Assembly (NCBI RefSeq): GCF_900142135.1
Contig: NZ_FQZU01000029.1
Location: forward strand, 1 to 64,000
Direction: 5' to 3'
Length of the DNA: 64,000 bases
From: Desulfatibacillum alkenivorans DSM 16219
Lineage (GTDB): Bacteria > Desulfobacterota > Desulfobacteria > Desulfobacterales > Desulfatibacillaceae
Under the pieces are notes generated by a model, which saw only the letters and a list, made by a program, of their open reading frames with translations, made no database searches and was not told the origin of the DNA. The translations under genes and the position numbers were made by a program. Below are positions 3,286-9,141 of the stretch, one piece after another (position 1 is the first letter of the stretch; each line of letters opens with the position of its first letter).

Positions 3286-3332
3286 GTGAACAATTTCACT
3301 AGTCGTTGACAGAAGGGTATAGTCCATATTAA
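3286..3332 (+). promoter_or_regulatory. Putative promoter and autoregulatory palindrome of the double TetR gene
   Basis: A TTGACA box at 3306-3311 is followed after 15 bases by TATTAA (3327-3332), a shorter than ideal spacing. Just upstream, GTGAA-caat-TTCAC (3286-3299) is a 14-bp palindrome of the size a TetR protein could bind. TetR regulators often sit on such sites in front of their own gene. Binding is inference. Confidence 0.4.
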
Positions 3333-3340
3333 AGGGACGT

Positions 3341-4726
3341 ATGGCAAAAAAGGTTCAAAAGAAAAAAGTCGCCTCTTACACCAAAGGCAAGGCGACCCGG
3401 AGCAAGATTATCGCCGCGGCAAGAAGGGTGTTCGCAAGCCGGCCCTACACCTCCGCCAGCATCCGGGCCATTGCCAAAGAGGGGGGATTCAACCATCCGC
3501 TGATTCATCATTACTTCCCTTCCAAGGCGGACCTGTTCATGACGGTCTCCAAGGAGCTTTATGATGAATACATGGAGCTTAGCTCCACCTGGATGGAAGG
3601 CGTCTGGGACATGGGCATGGACGAGAGCCTCCGGACCTCCGTGGAGCGGATTGTGGAGGACGTGTTCGACCACCCGGACGCTTTGCGCACGGTCATGCAG
3701 AACATGGCCCACGGCCTGAAGGTCGCGGACCTTCCCGGCCTGGATTTTTTCCCGGAGTTCTGGGCGGGCATTCAGGAGGTTTTCCGCAACGGGTTGTCGC
3801 CCTACGCCTGCCGGCGGGACATCGCCATGTGGATTTTGGGTTTTCATATGGTGATTTTCAACTGCGTGGGAGCGCCTCATTATCATGCCAAGGTCCTGGG
3901 CATGTCGCCCAAAAGCCCCGAATACAGGCAATGGGTCAAAGACGCTTTGATGTTCCTTTTTTACCCCTCCCTGAAAAAGCTGGTTTTTTCCCAGCCCGGG
4001 GACGAGCAGCCCATGACCTGGCCGCTTAACCCGCCCCGTCAAGGCAGCCGGGCATACGGCTCGTTGCACGCCCAGCCGATTGAAAGCCTGAAAAAGGGAG
4101 AGCAGACCCGGATAAAAATCCTGGAGGCCGCCCGCAAGGTGTTCACCGCCCATCCCTACAATACGGCGAGCATCCGCATGATCGGCAAGGAAGGCGGCTT
4201 TGACTTCACCCTGATTCACCATTATTTTCCGTCCAAGGCCGAGCTGTTCGAAGCCCTGGCCGCCCAGACCATGGAGGACCTGCTGCCCCAGGCCTATGTG
4301 TGGATGGAAGACCTTGCCCCCCTGAAGGTGGAGGACGGGCTGTCCATCTTCGCTGACCGTGCCATGGATTATTGCTTCCGGAATCCCGCAGCCCTCCACG
4401 GCCTCATGCAGAATATCGCCCAGCTGGATCAGTTGGAGGAGATTCCCGGCTTTGAACGCTTCGCCCAACTCAACTTGGCCACCCAGGAGGCTTTTCGTGA
4501 ATCCACCGGCATCCGCCGGGCCACGGACAAGGAAATCCAGATGTTCTCCTTTGGCGTGTATCTGATTTTATACAATTGCCTGGGCGTCTCCCATTTCCCC
4601 ACCCAGATCATGGGCCAGAACATGGAGGATCAGGAATACAGACAGTGGGTCAAGGATTTCATGATGATCATCCTCCTGCCGGTCCTGGAACGCATGATCA
4701 AGCCAAGAGCCCAAAAAGCAAGCTGA
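3341..4726 (+). CDS. Tandem double TetR-family transcriptional regulator
   Basis: 461 residues containing two full TetR units. Unit 1 starts its helix-turn-helix at residue 16 (GKATRSKIIAAARRVF, then HHYFPSKADLF). Unit 2 repeats it at residue 253 (GEQTRIKILEAARKVF, then HHYFPSKAELF). The ligand/dimerisation halves are also duplicated: YRQWVKD occurs at residues 195 and 433, so the copies are collinear with an offset of about 237 residues. A normal TetR is about 200 residues and acts as a homodimer; this chain could fold as a covalent pseudo-dimer. A linker of roughly 35 residues (about 215-250) joins the units. There is no frameshift, stop or internal ribosome site at the junction. Target genes are unknown; no enzyme gene is adjacent on the same strand. 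Confidence 0.9.
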   Translation: MAKKVQKKKVASYTKGKATRSKIIAAARRVFASRPYTSASIRAIAKEGGFNHPLIHHYFPSKADLFMTVSKELYDEYMELSSTWMEGVWDMGMDESLRTSVERIVEDVFDHPDALRTVMQNMAHGLKVADLPGLDFFPEFWAGIQEVFRNGLSPYACRRDIAMWILGFHMVIFNCVGAPHYHAKVLGMSPKSPEYRQWVKDALMFLFYPSLKKLVFSQPGDEQPMTWPLNPPRQGSRAYGSLHAQPIESLKKGEQTRIKILEAARKVFTAHPYNTASIRMIGKEGGFDFTLIHHYFPSKAELFEALAAQTMEDLLPQAYVWMEDLAPLKVEDGLSIFADRAMDYCFRNPAALHGLMQNIAQLDQLEEIPGFERFAQLNLATQEAFRESTGIRRATDKEIQMFSFGVYLILYNCLGVSHFPTQIMGQNMEDQEYRQWVKDFMMIILLPVLERMIKPRAQKAS

Positions 4727-5327: not shown

Positions 5328-6053
5328 ATGCCTGACGACTACACTCTCCAAATCAAAGCCAAGGCCGCGCAACTGGGCGCCGATCTGGCCGGAATCGCCG
5401 ATCTCGCCCCATTCAAGGACGAAAAGACCTATCCGGCCTCATTGCTGGCGCCTTTTACCCGCGCCCTTTCCATGGCCGTCCAGATACCGTCCATGGTTTT
5501 CGAAACTATCCACAAAAAGCCCAGCGACTTGTACAATCACGTGTACAAGACGGCCAACATGATGTTGGATCAGATCGCCCTAAAGGCGGCGGGCTCCCTG
5601 GAACAGGACGGATACCGGAGCCTGCCCATTCCCGCTTCCCAGATTATTGACGTGAAGGATTATCGCGGCGCCCTGAGCCATAAGGCGATTGCGCGCATGG
5701 CGGGCTTGGGGTGGCAGGGAAAGAGCCTGCTTTTGGTGACTCCCAAATTCGGCCCCAGAGTCAGATTGGTAACCGTGCTGACCAACGCCCCCCTGGAACC
5801 GGACGGCCCTGTTGCAAACCGATGCGGAAAATGCACCAACTGTAAGGACGCCTGCCCTGCGGGCGCCATCAAAGGGGTGCAAATTAAGGACCGGTATGCA
5901 GACCGGAATCAAGCCCTGGATTTTCAAAAATGCGTGGATAAAACCGCCGAGTTCGCCCGCATGGACAACATTGGCGCCAGGATTTGCGGATTCTGCATCA
6001 AGGCCTGCCCCTTCGGCCGAAAAAATCCCAAAAACCTGCCCTGGCTGCAGTAG
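5328..6053 (+). CDS. QueG-like (epoxyqueuosine reductase-related) double [4Fe-4S] protein
   Basis: 241 residues. The C-terminal third holds two ferredoxin-type cluster motifs: C166-x2-C169-x2-C172-x3-C176-P, and C202 with C220-x2-C223-x3-C227-P. The preceding region (HKAIARMAGLGWQGKSLLLVTP, then GPRVRLVTVLTNAPLEPD) is the conserved part of the QueG/COG1600 family. It is much shorter than true QueG (about 350 residues) and lacks the C-terminal HEAT-like region, so it belongs to the short subgroup common in anaerobes and is unlikely to be the tRNA-modifying enzyme itself. It is probably a cytoplasmic electron-transfer protein. The ATG follows aaGGAGccgggc. Confidence 0.75.
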   Translation: MPDDYTLQIKAKAAQLGADLAGIADLAPFKDEKTYPASLLAPFTRALSMAVQIPSMVFETIHKKPSDLYNHVYKTANMMLDQIALKAAGSLEQDGYRSLPIPASQIIDVKDYRGALSHKAIARMAGLGWQGKSLLLVTPKFGPRVRLVTVLTNAPLEPDGPVANRCGKCTNCKDACPAGAIKGVQIKDRYADRNQALDFQKCVDKTAEFARMDNIGARICGFCIKACPFGRKNPKNLPWLQ

Positions 6054-6473: not shown

Positions 6474-7277
6474 TTATTTCCCCTCAAACTTGGGCTCGCG
6501 CTTTTCCTTAAAAGCCTTGGGGCCTTCCTGGGCGTCCTTGCTCATGAACACGGGCAGGGCCAGCTCCAATTCCCTCTGCAGGCCTTCGGACAACGGCTTG
6601 CCGCGGTTTTCTATGACGGATTTCTTGATGGCTTCCACGGCCAGGGGGCCGTTCTTGCAGATGATACCGGCGTACCGTTCCGCCTCCTCCATCACTTTTT
6701 CCCGGGGAACGATCTTGTTGATAAAGCCAAGACGCAAGGCTTCCTCCGCCTCCATCAACTCTCCGGTCAGCAGGATTTCCATGGCCCGGGCGTAAGGCAG
6801 CTGCCTGGGCAGGCGGATGCTCGACCCTCCGGCCGGAAAAATGGCCCATTTGACTTCCTGCAGCCCGAACTTGACCCCTTCAGCGGCGATGCGGATGTCC
6901 GTGGCGTACAGGGCCTCCATGCCGCCTGCGATGGCGTGGCCGTTGATGGCGGCGATGACCGGCTTGTACAAGGGATATTCCCGCAGGATGGCTTTGTTCA
7001 CGATCATGGGATCGCTCTGGCAGGCTTTTTCCGCGTCCGTTTCGGCCGGCTTGGCGCCCGTGAACAAGGGGATCAGCTTGCCCAGGTCCGCGCCCGAGCA
7101 AAACACCTTGTCCCCGGTCCCGGTCAGAATGGCGCAGCGCATTTCCTTGTCTTCGGCGTAATCCTTCCATGCGTCGATCAATTGCAGGATGGTTTCCGGG
7201 TCCATGGCGTTTCGGGCCTCGGGCCGGTTAAAAGTCAGGTACGCGATATTGTTTCTTTTTTCGTAGATCAAACCCAT
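6474..7277 (-). CDS. Enoyl-CoA hydratase/isomerase family protein (crotonase)
   Basis: 267 residues, the usual crotonase length. The oxyanion-hole region CSGADLG (60-66) and the AIAGGMEALYATD helix (115-127) are present. Both acid/base glutamates of true enoyl-CoA hydratases appear to be kept: E121 in GGME and E141 in LQEVKW, 20 residues apart as in the characterised enzymes. It should hydrate trans-2-enoyl-CoA in beta-oxidation, in the cytoplasm. The exact chain length preference cannot be read. The ATG has GGAGG six bases upstream. It lies 94 bases after the AOR gene with its own candidate promoter. Confidence 0.88.
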   Translation of the reverse strand: MGLIYEKRNNIAYLTFNRPEARNAMDPETILQLIDAWKDYAEDKEMRCAILTGTGDKVFCSGADLGKLIPLFTGAKPAETDAEKACQSDPMIVNKAILREYPLYKPVIAAINGHAIAGGMEALYATDIRIAAEGVKFGLQEVKWAIFPAGGSSIRLPRQLPYARAMEILLTGELMEAEEALRLGFINKIVPREKVMEEAERYAGIICKNGPLAVEAIKKSVIENRGKPLSEGLQRELELALPVFMSKDAQEGPKAFKEKREPKFEGK

Positions 7278-7371: not shown

Positions 7372-9141
7372 TCAGAAGGGGGAATCCCGTAACAATCCCA
7401 AATCGGTCCAGCCGCGCAGGCGGTAATACTCCGTGAGCATCTCCCGGAAAAAGTCCCGGGAGAGGACCTGGCCGGATTCAAGAGCCCGGGAGAAAAAGGC
7501 CTTGGGCAGGGTTTCGTGAATCGCGGGGTCCATGCCTTCCCGGAGGTTGAAGCGGCGGACGATGTTTGCGATGTTTTGGGCGATTTGCTGCAGGTTGGTT
7601 TTTTCCGGACTCAGGCCGCAGGTCATGGAGACGATGTCGCCCAGGGCGTCCCAGGGGTAAAGATCCCGGTAGAACCGGCACAGGATCAGGGCGTCAAACA
7701 GGGTGAGCCTGTCTTCAAAGTCGACGTACAACTCTACCTTGCCCTCCAATTCATCCGGTCGGGACATGCCGGAGAGCTCGGCCTTGTAAAAGGTGGACCG
7801 CAAATGGCAAGCGCCTCTTGGCGAAGTGGCGTAAGCCAACCCCATGCCTTTGAGCACGCGGGGATCGTACCCGGCGGGCTCCAGGCCTTTGACGTGGACG
7901 GCCTGGTCCTCCATGCCCCATTCCTTGGCGGCGTGAACGATTCCCTTGGCCAGGAAGTCGCCCGCTCCCTCACGCCGTGCAATTTTCCGCAGAAGGTCGG
8001 CCGCGCCCTGGGCGTCGCCGTAGCGGACGGGCAGTTTGGCGCGGCCTTGCTCCACGGCTTCCATGGTGAAGGCGCACAGGTTGCCGCTGGTGATGGTGTC
8101 CATGCCAAGGGAGTCGCACAAATGGTTCAAAAATGCGATTTCCTCAATGGAGTCGATGGCGCACAAGCCGCCGAAGGCGTAAATGGTTTCGTATTCCGGG
8201 CCTTCTACGGTCAGACCTTTATGGGGGCCGTCCAGCAAGGTTCCGCGCCGGCCGCAGGCCATGAAGCATTTGGCGCAGGCCGCGGGAGTCACCCGGCATT
8301 TTTCGTGCAAGGCTTCGGCGGAAATTTTCTCCCAGTTTTCAAAATAACCTTGCTTCCAGTATCGGGTGGGAAAGGCGCCGGCCTTGTTCAAGACCTGCAC
8401 CATCATGGGCGTGCCTTTGGATTTATAGGCCTGGACCGAGGGGTTTTCCTTGGATTCCGCCGCGTAATCCCTGGAGAAATCCCGAAGCCGGGCCGGGTCC
8501 GCCATGGGCCTCTTGGCGCCGCCCCAAAAGACCATGGCCTTGACTTTCTTGGACCCCATGACCGCTCCGGGGCCTGTCCGGCCAGCGCTGCGCCACTTGT
8601 CGTTTTCAATGACCGCAAACGAAACCAGGTTTTCTCCGGCCGGGCCGATGGCGAGAGCGCCTTTTTTTCCGGCCTTGCCCGCGGCGATTTCAAGGGCTTT
8701 TTCCTCCGTTGAGATGGCGTCCAGGCCCCAGAGGTTCGAAGCATCGTGAAAATGTACGCCGCCCGGCTCGATTTCCAAAACCGTGGGCGCCGCGCACTGG
8801 CCTTGCAGAATGACGGCGTCGTATCCGGCGGCGTCCATGGCCTCGGGAGCGCGGCCGCCGGCATAGGATTCGCTGTAAAATCCGGTCTGGGGGCTTTTGG
8901 TGAAGACTCCGTACCGGCATCCTCCCCAGATCAGGGAGCCGGTCGCGGGTCCGCATGTGAAAATCAGGTTGTTTTCCGGCCCAAGCGGGTCGCAATGAGG
9001 CGGGTTATGCTCGTATAAGAGGTAAGAGCCCAGGCCCTTGCCGCCCAGGCAGGCGGCCAGGACGTCAGGATCGGGCTTTTCAATCCGGAAAGATCGGCTT
9101 TTCAGATCGATAAACAGAATTTTTCCGTGAAAACCGAACAT
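7372..9141 (-). CDS. aor: Aldehyde:ferredoxin oxidoreductase (tungsten/molybdopterin)
   Basis: 589 residues, the normal size. The N-terminal AOR domain starts with GKILFIDL and GGKGLGSYLLYE, then FTCGPATGS and GCRYGVFTKSPQTGF, which contact the bis-pterin cofactor. The [4Fe-4S] ligands are C289-x2-C292-x3-C296 and C488 (DALILC). The family oxidises aldehydes to acids with ferredoxin, or reduces acids in reverse, in the cytoplasm. Its ATG lies two bases after the stop of the MoeA-PBP gene, so translation is probably coupled. Adjacent cofactor-insertion genes suggest dedicated maturation. Substrate is not predictable; the nearby iron-dependent alcohol dehydrogenase could share an aldehyde pool, but that is speculation. 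Confidence 0.92.
   Translation of the reverse strand: MFGFHGKILFIDLKSRSFRIEKPDPDVLAACLGGKGLGSYLLYEHNPPHCDPLGPENNLIFTCGPATGSLIWGGCRYGVFTKSPQTGFYSESYAGGRAPEAMDAAGYDAVILQGQCAAPTVLEIEPGGVHFHDASNLWGLDAISTEEKALEIAAGKAGKKGALAIGPAGENLVSFAVIENDKWRSAGRTGPGAVMGSKKVKAMVFWGGAKRPMADPARLRDFSRDYAAESKENPSVQAYKSKGTPMMVQVLNKAGAFPTRYWKQGYFENWEKISAEALHEKCRVTPAACAKCFMACGRRGTLLDGPHKGLTVEGPEYETIYAFGGLCAIDSIEEIAFLNHLCDSLGMDTITSGNLCAFTMEAVEQGRAKLPVRYGDAQGAADLLRKIARREGAGDFLAKGIVHAAKEWGMEDQAVHVKGLEPAGYDPRVLKGMGLAYATSPRGACHLRSTFYKAELSGMSRPDELEGKVELYVDFEDRLTLFDALILCRFYRDLYPWDALGDIVSMTCGLSPEKTNLQQIAQNIANIVRRFNLREGMDPAIHETLPKAFFSRALESGQVLSRDFFREMLTEYYRLRGWTDLGLLRDSPF

Follow-up and report, generated by a model that had tools for sequence, protein, structure and literature searches.

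TetR units act as homodimers as a rule, and in the engineered single-chain Tet repressor (scTetR) two such units, joined by a linker, act as one dimer. A natural double TetR repressor is Mce3R of M. tuberculosis (Rv1963c, PDB 9b7y), whose single chain is described as forming an omega-shaped TetR in which both units contribute to a four-helix bundle; its authors stated in 2024 that no structure of a double TetR had been solved before it (PMC11667970). The Mce3R operator is non-palindromic, the operator region holding two 25-bp sites with 53 bp between them, and the same report cites 204 predicted double TFRs in Actinomycetes (PMC11667970). The double-TetR kind of protein is already known through Mce3R, and the Desulfobacterales family considered here is a separate lineage. 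In the published literature (top matches among open-licence PMC articles, by titles and openings of abstracts) we found no double TetR in Desulfobacterales and no TetR regulator of MasD, which initiates the anaerobic degradation of alkanes.

The gene studied, P0001, lies in a 64,000-nucleotide stretch of the Desulfatibacillum alkenivorans DSM 16219 genome (G000; contig NZ_FQZU01000029.1, positions 1 to 64,000), referred to below as the window. It occupies positions 3341-4726 of the plus strand, stop codon included, and its frame starts with ATG and runs through 461 amino acids with no internal stop. The Pfam family TetR_N (PF00440) is matched in two stretches (E 3.1e-27, 94.5 bits against a cut-off of 24), at 3407-3538 within the N-terminal unit (residues 13-215; 3377-3985, plus strand) and at 4118-4258 within the C-terminal unit (residues 251-453; 4091-4699, plus strand), the units being connected by an interdomain linker of residues 216-250 (3986-4090, plus strand). 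The HTH-to-HTH spacing is 237 residues and the two recognition helices are almost identical (HPLIHHYF in the N half, FTLIHHYF in the C half). The self-alignment that had been proposed as a check gave 76 identities in 207 positions (37%, E 3e-57) with a score of 411, far above the 500 shuffles, which reached no more than 49. The preliminary description of two complete TetR units in one polypeptide is upheld by this resemblance of the halves and by the doubled TetR_N match, and the offset of about 237 residues and the peptides that it listed (GKATR/GEQTR, HHYFPSKADLF/HHYFPSKAELF and YRQWVKD twice) are all present.

It had also been claimed that no frameshift or stop lies between the halves, and this agrees with the repetition of the in-frame fusion in an independent assembly, that of the sister genome G001, whose fused orthologue is 82% identical to P0001 and free of stops. 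Between these two genes the dN/dS (Nei-Gojobori) was 0.09 over the whole length, with 0.065 in the N unit, 0.093 in the C unit and 0.16 in the linker, values that are approximate with synonymous sites close to saturation; by this measure both units are under purifying selection. Separate TetR genes do sit near each other in the genome (TetR_N matches at C43:12409 and 13141), as would be needed for an assembly or annotation artefact merging two adjacent genes; the in-frame, stop-free fusion is, however, found in other assemblies too, which for practical purposes refutes this explanation. The possibility of an artefact or a pseudogene was likewise ruled out by the stop-free fusion in G001 and the low dN/dS.

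For each unit of P0001 an all-helical TetR fold is predicted, with ten helices in the N-terminal unit (residues 2 to 215) and ten in the C-terminal one (residues 252 to 453), and single TetR chains align to each half; the linker is modelled mainly as coil (216 to about 246). The AlphaFold2 model of the full chain has a pTM of 0.84 and a mean pLDDT of 83.7, and the model with a protein of branch D of the family (L024) placed first has 0.81 and 81.8, the input being 16 family members and AlphaFold2 being a program that may dock any linked TetR pair. Mce3R was the only PDB chain at a Foldseek E of 0.001 or less for the P0001 model (436 columns), and also the only one below E 0.001 for the L024 model. 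The Foldseek match is loose, with TM scores of 0.51/0.58 for the P0001 model (0.50-0.59 over both models) and an rmsd of 7.8 for P0001 and 10.5 for L024. In VIA-align the P0001 model matched Mce3R with Z 20.2 and rmsd 6.1 over 364 aligned residues from both halves (model 12-451), the next chain listed being a single TetR with Z 12.6. Because of the pTM of the whole chain and this Z score over both halves, P0001 is likely to be a covalent, Mce3R-type pseudo-dimer; the pseudo-dimer idea of the preliminary description, and the structure prediction of the single chain that it suggested, are supported by the placement of the halves as in Mce3R, that is, by prediction.

In another possible arrangement, that of beads on a string or of a domain-swapped dimer, each half would pair with its counterpart in a second chain, giving two homodimeric TetRs side by side on two separate palindromic operators. 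This would accord with the usual homodimerisation of TetR units, with the full TetR length kept in each half and with the low confidence of the linker (pLDDT 56 in block 231-240 and 61 in block 241-250), but the relative placement of the halves is confident in both models, and the match is to Mce3R, whose halves pair within one chain. We consider such an arrangement unlikely, and the candidate operators discussed below also bear on it.

P0001 is not isolated. Its own genome contains two more double relatives of full length, at C34:164491-165810 and at C94:9782-11230, and the search for other double TetR proteins, which had been proposed earlier, revealed by a profile of 12 doubles at least 16 doubles in 9 of the 291 genomes of the order Desulfobacterales; this number is a lower bound, as the best five candidates per genome were scored. 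There are four doubles in G001, three in G000, two each in G005 and G117 and one each in G006, G007, G008, G077 and G085. The profile was matched in 37 of the 291 genomes, and those without doubles have single-unit relatives. In a contig scan beyond the order, among at least 80 loci, L045 and L046 match nearly the full query in one long segment and are read as loci already counted in G007 and G006, and in a plasmid search none of nine records spans 80% of the P0001 query. Three more double-TetR genes of G000 (C19:37673-38398, C34:202586-203317 and C73:991-1713; L165, L179 and L180) encode proteins of 395-422 aa with 195-198 residues between the HTHs; these align with each other over the full length (30-56%) and with P0001 weakly, which points to a second double lineage. 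The six open frames of doubles in G000 supply 12 of its 78 TetR_N matches.

In the tree of 48 units (16 N, 16 C and 16 single; the distant rows L011, L012, L036 and L042, present in a first tree, were left out) the branching of the N and C subtrees is largely the same. All 16 C halves cluster with the singles L006 and L160b (support 81/89), and 14 of the 16 N halves form one clade (support 99/97), outside of which lie those of P0001 and its G001 orthologue; the AU test did not reject a single clade for the N halves or for the C halves (p 0.39 each). Since the two subtrees largely mirror each other, one ancient fusion followed by co-divergence of the halves would be the simplest reading of the sequences, and L006 and L160b are most simply taken to be close single relatives or split products. 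The branches of most N halves are longer, and lie farther from the singles, than those of the C halves, and this might be expected if one half were functional and the other were a leftover merely filling the dimer interface. Such a loss of function in one half appears quite improbable to us in view of the low dN/dS of both units, of the intactness of both recognition helices and of the two conserved, different half-sites in the candidate operators of branch D.

These operators were sought at the eight branch-D doubles with readable upstream DNA (L037/L168, L023/L169, L032/L170, L161, L162, L022, L024 and L025). All eight promoters contain two asymmetric WTCYACNNNCGGTAAA-like sites in the same orientation, 54-56 bp apart, matching 11-13 of the 13 fixed positions; in the shuffled regions such site matches averaged 0.23 over all eight together, with no more than four. 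A test that presupposes no pattern, applied to pairs 52-58 bp apart, yielded in each of the eight promoters a direct pair (15-19 of 19 positions identical) that none of its 60 shuffles equalled; the inverted pairs were not significant in any of them (9-13/19). The sites seem to flank a promoter, since the sequence TGTCAA between the two copies reads as TTGACA toward the neighbouring operon. When the exact pattern was searched in 18 genomes, 25 matches were obtained, 16 of them in the seven branch-D genomes and 13 of these at branch-D promoters; the reversed control had 12 matches in the same seven genomes, so that the total is hardly enriched and the location alone is, and even this enrichment is partly circular, the pattern having been derived from those promoters. 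A site in G003 (L206, contig end), which belongs to the same genus as G006, was found blind, with a second copy 56 bp away and before a MasD-like gene. In P0001's own genome, where the searches showed no branch-D double, a single site of the branch-D type (G000:C10:74361-74376, L201), with no second copy beside it, lies 113 bp before a gene whose sequence resembles a 2-hydroxyacyl-CoA dehydratase activase. If each half paired with its like in a second chain, two sites at the spacing observed in branch D could suit the two heads of one complex, but asymmetric sites in direct repeat would be unnecessary for a homodimer, and the covalent pseudo-dimer is preferred for these proteins also.

The right half of the site, CGGTAAA, is nearly constant across the 16 branch-D copies. 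The N half is probably its reader, because the recognition helix of this half is nearly constant as well (HPLV, HPLI or HPLL). As left half-site L161, L162 and L170 have TCCAC, the remaining five doubles mostly TCTAC, and the C-half helix starts with FDFS or FDHS in the former and with FDFT or FDHT in the latter; the C/T choice in the half-site tracks the Ser/Thr change in the recognition helix, and the C half probably reads TCYAC. L161, L162 and L170 form one clade, so this covariation amounts to a single event and may be taken as a lead, not as a proof.

Among the single-TetR relatives, the same pattern-free test (60 shuffles each, a pass being both modes at 3% or less) was passed by 4 of the 15 tested. 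The pairs at L034, L038, L039 and L044, 54-58 bp apart, match both directly (14-16/19) and as inverted copies (14-18/19) and would be near-palindromic, as expected for homodimers. One-sided hits at 2% or less, direct-only at L007 and L033 and inverted-only at L005 and L043, with none at the other singles, were treated as noise in view of the 60 shuffles each and the many regions; at L160 the DNA upstream of the frame neighbouring the single gave an inverted pair only. No significant pair was found by this test at the doubles of groups A and C or at the L160 double, and the group B doubles, whose upstream DNA is coding, were left out; the best branch-D model score of the G085 double (L171) was 5.2. 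The best-axis palindromicity was 0.55 for doubles, 0.73 for singles and 0.65 for random DNA, a comparison biased by the selection of the singles' sites with a palindromic pattern, and the pair test was relied on instead. A universal palindrome for the single-TetR relatives was considered and dropped, with one site only in 18 genomes. At L160 (G117:C25:30783-30800) the palindrome TTTCYACGNNCGTRGAAA, which equals two left-type branch-D half-sites and is the sole site of this form in 18 genomes, stands upstream of a reading frame that is followed by a single-TetR relative. In the divergent promoter of the group C doubles (L164:11282-11648, L172:7396-7688) there is a conserved near-palindrome, AATTTCATC-TATCG-GATGAAATT, complete in L164 and one base off in L172, with a 5-bp spacer of the NNNCG form, as in the branch-D sites.

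Seven of the eight branch-D doubles, all except L022, face an operon of a MasD-like glycyl radical enzyme or of an acyl-CoA dehydrogenase. The MasD-like gene is faced by four of them (in G001, G005 C15, G006 and G008) and by the G003 site, where no double is visible; these proteins are 67-100% identical to the L168 protein over the stretches present, and the L168 protein matches MasD (PDB 9o8u) with 1254 bits. The acyl-CoA dehydrogenase is faced by L161, L162 and L170 (73-100% identity); downstream of it, L161 has genes for two dehydratase-type subunits (HGD-D) and then for a thiolase, and from their sequences L162 can be read as having this gene order too and L170 as having the dehydratase-type pair. 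Group C doubles adjoin thiolase and SDR genes. In the window, the gene divergent from P0001 (2580-3011, minus strand) encodes a DUF1499 protein (PF07386, E 1.2e-41) and a similar gene is read in the same place in G001. Conserved neighbours, with similar genes in G001 and as read at locus L167, are those of a 4Fe-4S double-cluster protein (5328-6053, plus strand; Pfam Fer4_16), an enoyl-CoA hydratase (6474-7277, minus strand; PF00378, E 6.9e-60) and an aldehyde ferredoxin oxidoreductase (AOR; 7372-9141, minus strand; PF01314/PF02730), the latter cut by the contig end in G001. Two MasD-like genes are present in G000 (C40:432855-435347 and C44:43892-46390, 71% and 67% identical to the G001 protein), which suggests that this organism degrades alkanes anaerobically; neither of them adjoins any of the six doubles found in G000.

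We give about even odds to the view that the fusion in branch D turned a palindrome-reading homodimer into a covalent heterodimer which recognises an asymmetric word made of CGGTAAA and TCYAC halves, acts as a repressor responsive to alkanes and acyl-CoA and faces MasD, while related single-TetR genes keep the ancestral palindromic state. The branch-D genes also make a concrete candidate for the switch of anaerobic alkane activation (MasD) in sulfate reducers.

At the P0001 promoter no asymmetric direct-repeat pair was found by the pattern-free test, and a branch-D site was rejected there, the best score being 0.6 versus 14-30 for the 16 training copies. The asymmetric operator recognition suggested in the preliminary description has support in branch D, with direct asymmetric candidate pairs at all eight promoters, and is not borne out at the promoter of the gene for which it was suggested. 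The operator of P0001 may be close to symmetric, as its nearly alike recognition helices would allow. The upstream region contains the palindrome GTGAA-CAAT-TTCAC at 3286-3299, with an expected count in 64 kb of 0.01, and, at 3306-3311 on the plus strand, a TTGACA that is likely to be a -35 hexamer and is conserved in G001 according to the two-genome alignment; promoter consensus matches give TTCACT at 3295 and TATAGT at 3323 instead, TTGACA at 3306 not being among them. The element GTCC-N9-GGAC at 3322-3338, fully conserved in G001 and with 6 of 8 pairs, is the sole match in the window allowing up to three mismatches (expected 0.14); it could serve as an operator for autoregulation, or simply comprise the -10 element and the ribosome-binding site.

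The palindrome, which is present as described earlier, had been proposed as the operator of P0001. In favour of this are its position directly ahead of P0001, the conservation of its arms in G001, its rarity in the window and the frequent autoregulation of TetR genes. Some of its copies are also unlike Rex targets: that at C49:3934 lies within a 554-aa reading frame, and the second of the two occurrences of the exact word GTGAACAATTTCAC in G000 (C40:144465-144478) falls in a long gap, some 570 bp ahead of a reading frame whose beginning is radical-SAM-like. A perfect palindrome as the operator would argue against asymmetric recognition. Nevertheless, the palindrome has the whole GTGAA-N4-TTCAC core in common with the operator of Rex (consensus TTGTGAAW4TTCACAA, PMC2883068) and fits 12 of the 14 fixed positions, both in the window and in G001; the flank positions nearest the core are C and T, not T and A, and the window spacer, beginning with C, is not all A/T. 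This spacer, partly kept, differs between the two genomes (CAAT in the window, TTAT in G001). GTGAA-N4-TTCAC sites number 10 in G000 versus 0 for the reversed control and 8 versus 1 in G001. The surroundings were viewed for 8 of the 10 G000 sites (C56:3934 and C76:84264 being left out); one site precedes a gene passing the NCBIfam Rex cut-off and one a gene named, by sequence reading, as adenylate-kinase-like. None of the five other family doubles in G000 and G001 has such a site nearby. Because of the Rex core and the copy before the rex gene, the palindrome is best read as a Rex-type operator; the earlier proposal is probably wrong, and we allow only a small chance for this palindrome being P0001's own operator. 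Rex was also preferred to a CRP reading (GTGA-N6-TCAC spacing), because both arms, GTGAA and TTCAC, are complete and one copy precedes rex. The P0001 promoter would then probably be under the redox repressor Rex as well.

Taken as a whole, P0001 can be regarded, with a probability of roughly 0.7, as an intact double-TetR repressor that belongs to an old family of such proteins in Desulfobacterales, an Mce3R-type pseudo-dimer with acyl-CoA-type release, engaged in the control of acyl-CoA or hydrocarbon genes and subject to Rex control. A TetR gene would have been duplicated and its copies fused in frame, and the units would pack within one chain as subunits do in an ordinary TetR dimer, yielding a pseudo-dimer whose two reading heads differ and whose two pockets have diverged. 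P0001 would repress by binding promoter DNA and be released by an acyl-CoA-type metabolite, which is suggested by the gene context and by the acyl-CoA-binding TetRs DesT and FasR among the fold matches of the model; anaerobic acyl-CoA or hydrocarbon breakdown genes are its probable targets. What has been demonstrated, at the level of sequence comparison, is that the fusion exists and is conserved and constrained, how the family branches, and that branch D has sites in direct repeat. The loose Mce3R match, the lack of an asymmetric pair at the P0001 promoter, the near-palindrome of group C and the position of the N halves of P0001 and its orthologue outside the main clade speak against the overall explanation. 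A second lineage outside Actinomycetes, with singles in the same genomes and candidate operators on both sides, may show how a symmetric dimer becomes asymmetric and how residues read bases.

Compared with P0001, scTetR is man-made, from copies of one TetR. Mce3R resembles P0001 in having two TetR units per chain, over both halves of which the predicted P0001 fold aligns, and both Mce3R and the P0001 family are tied to lipid-type metabolism. The Mce3R operator region has two asymmetric sites (PMC11667970), as has, in the form of candidate sites, each branch-D promoter. However, Mce3R and P0001 share 12% identity in the structural alignment, and by sequence Mce3R is no closer to the P0001 family than single TetRs are (profile rank 51 of 292 PDB matches, E 2.7e-8), C-terminal domains being known to diverge fast. 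The HTHs are 237 residues apart in P0001 and about 204 in Mce3R, going by the HTH positions in PMC11667970, and the sites, from start to start, are 54-56 bp apart in branch D and about 78 bp in Mce3R, as reckoned from the 25-bp sites and the 53 bp between them. The P0001 family also belongs to another phylum and has another candidate operator sequence and other probable targets, and it sits in Desulfobacterales, whereas the double TFRs that share its architecture were predicted in Actinomycetes. What is new is a separate double-TetR lineage with a series of candidate sites from palindromic to asymmetric and with a link, read from gene neighbourhoods, to MasD.
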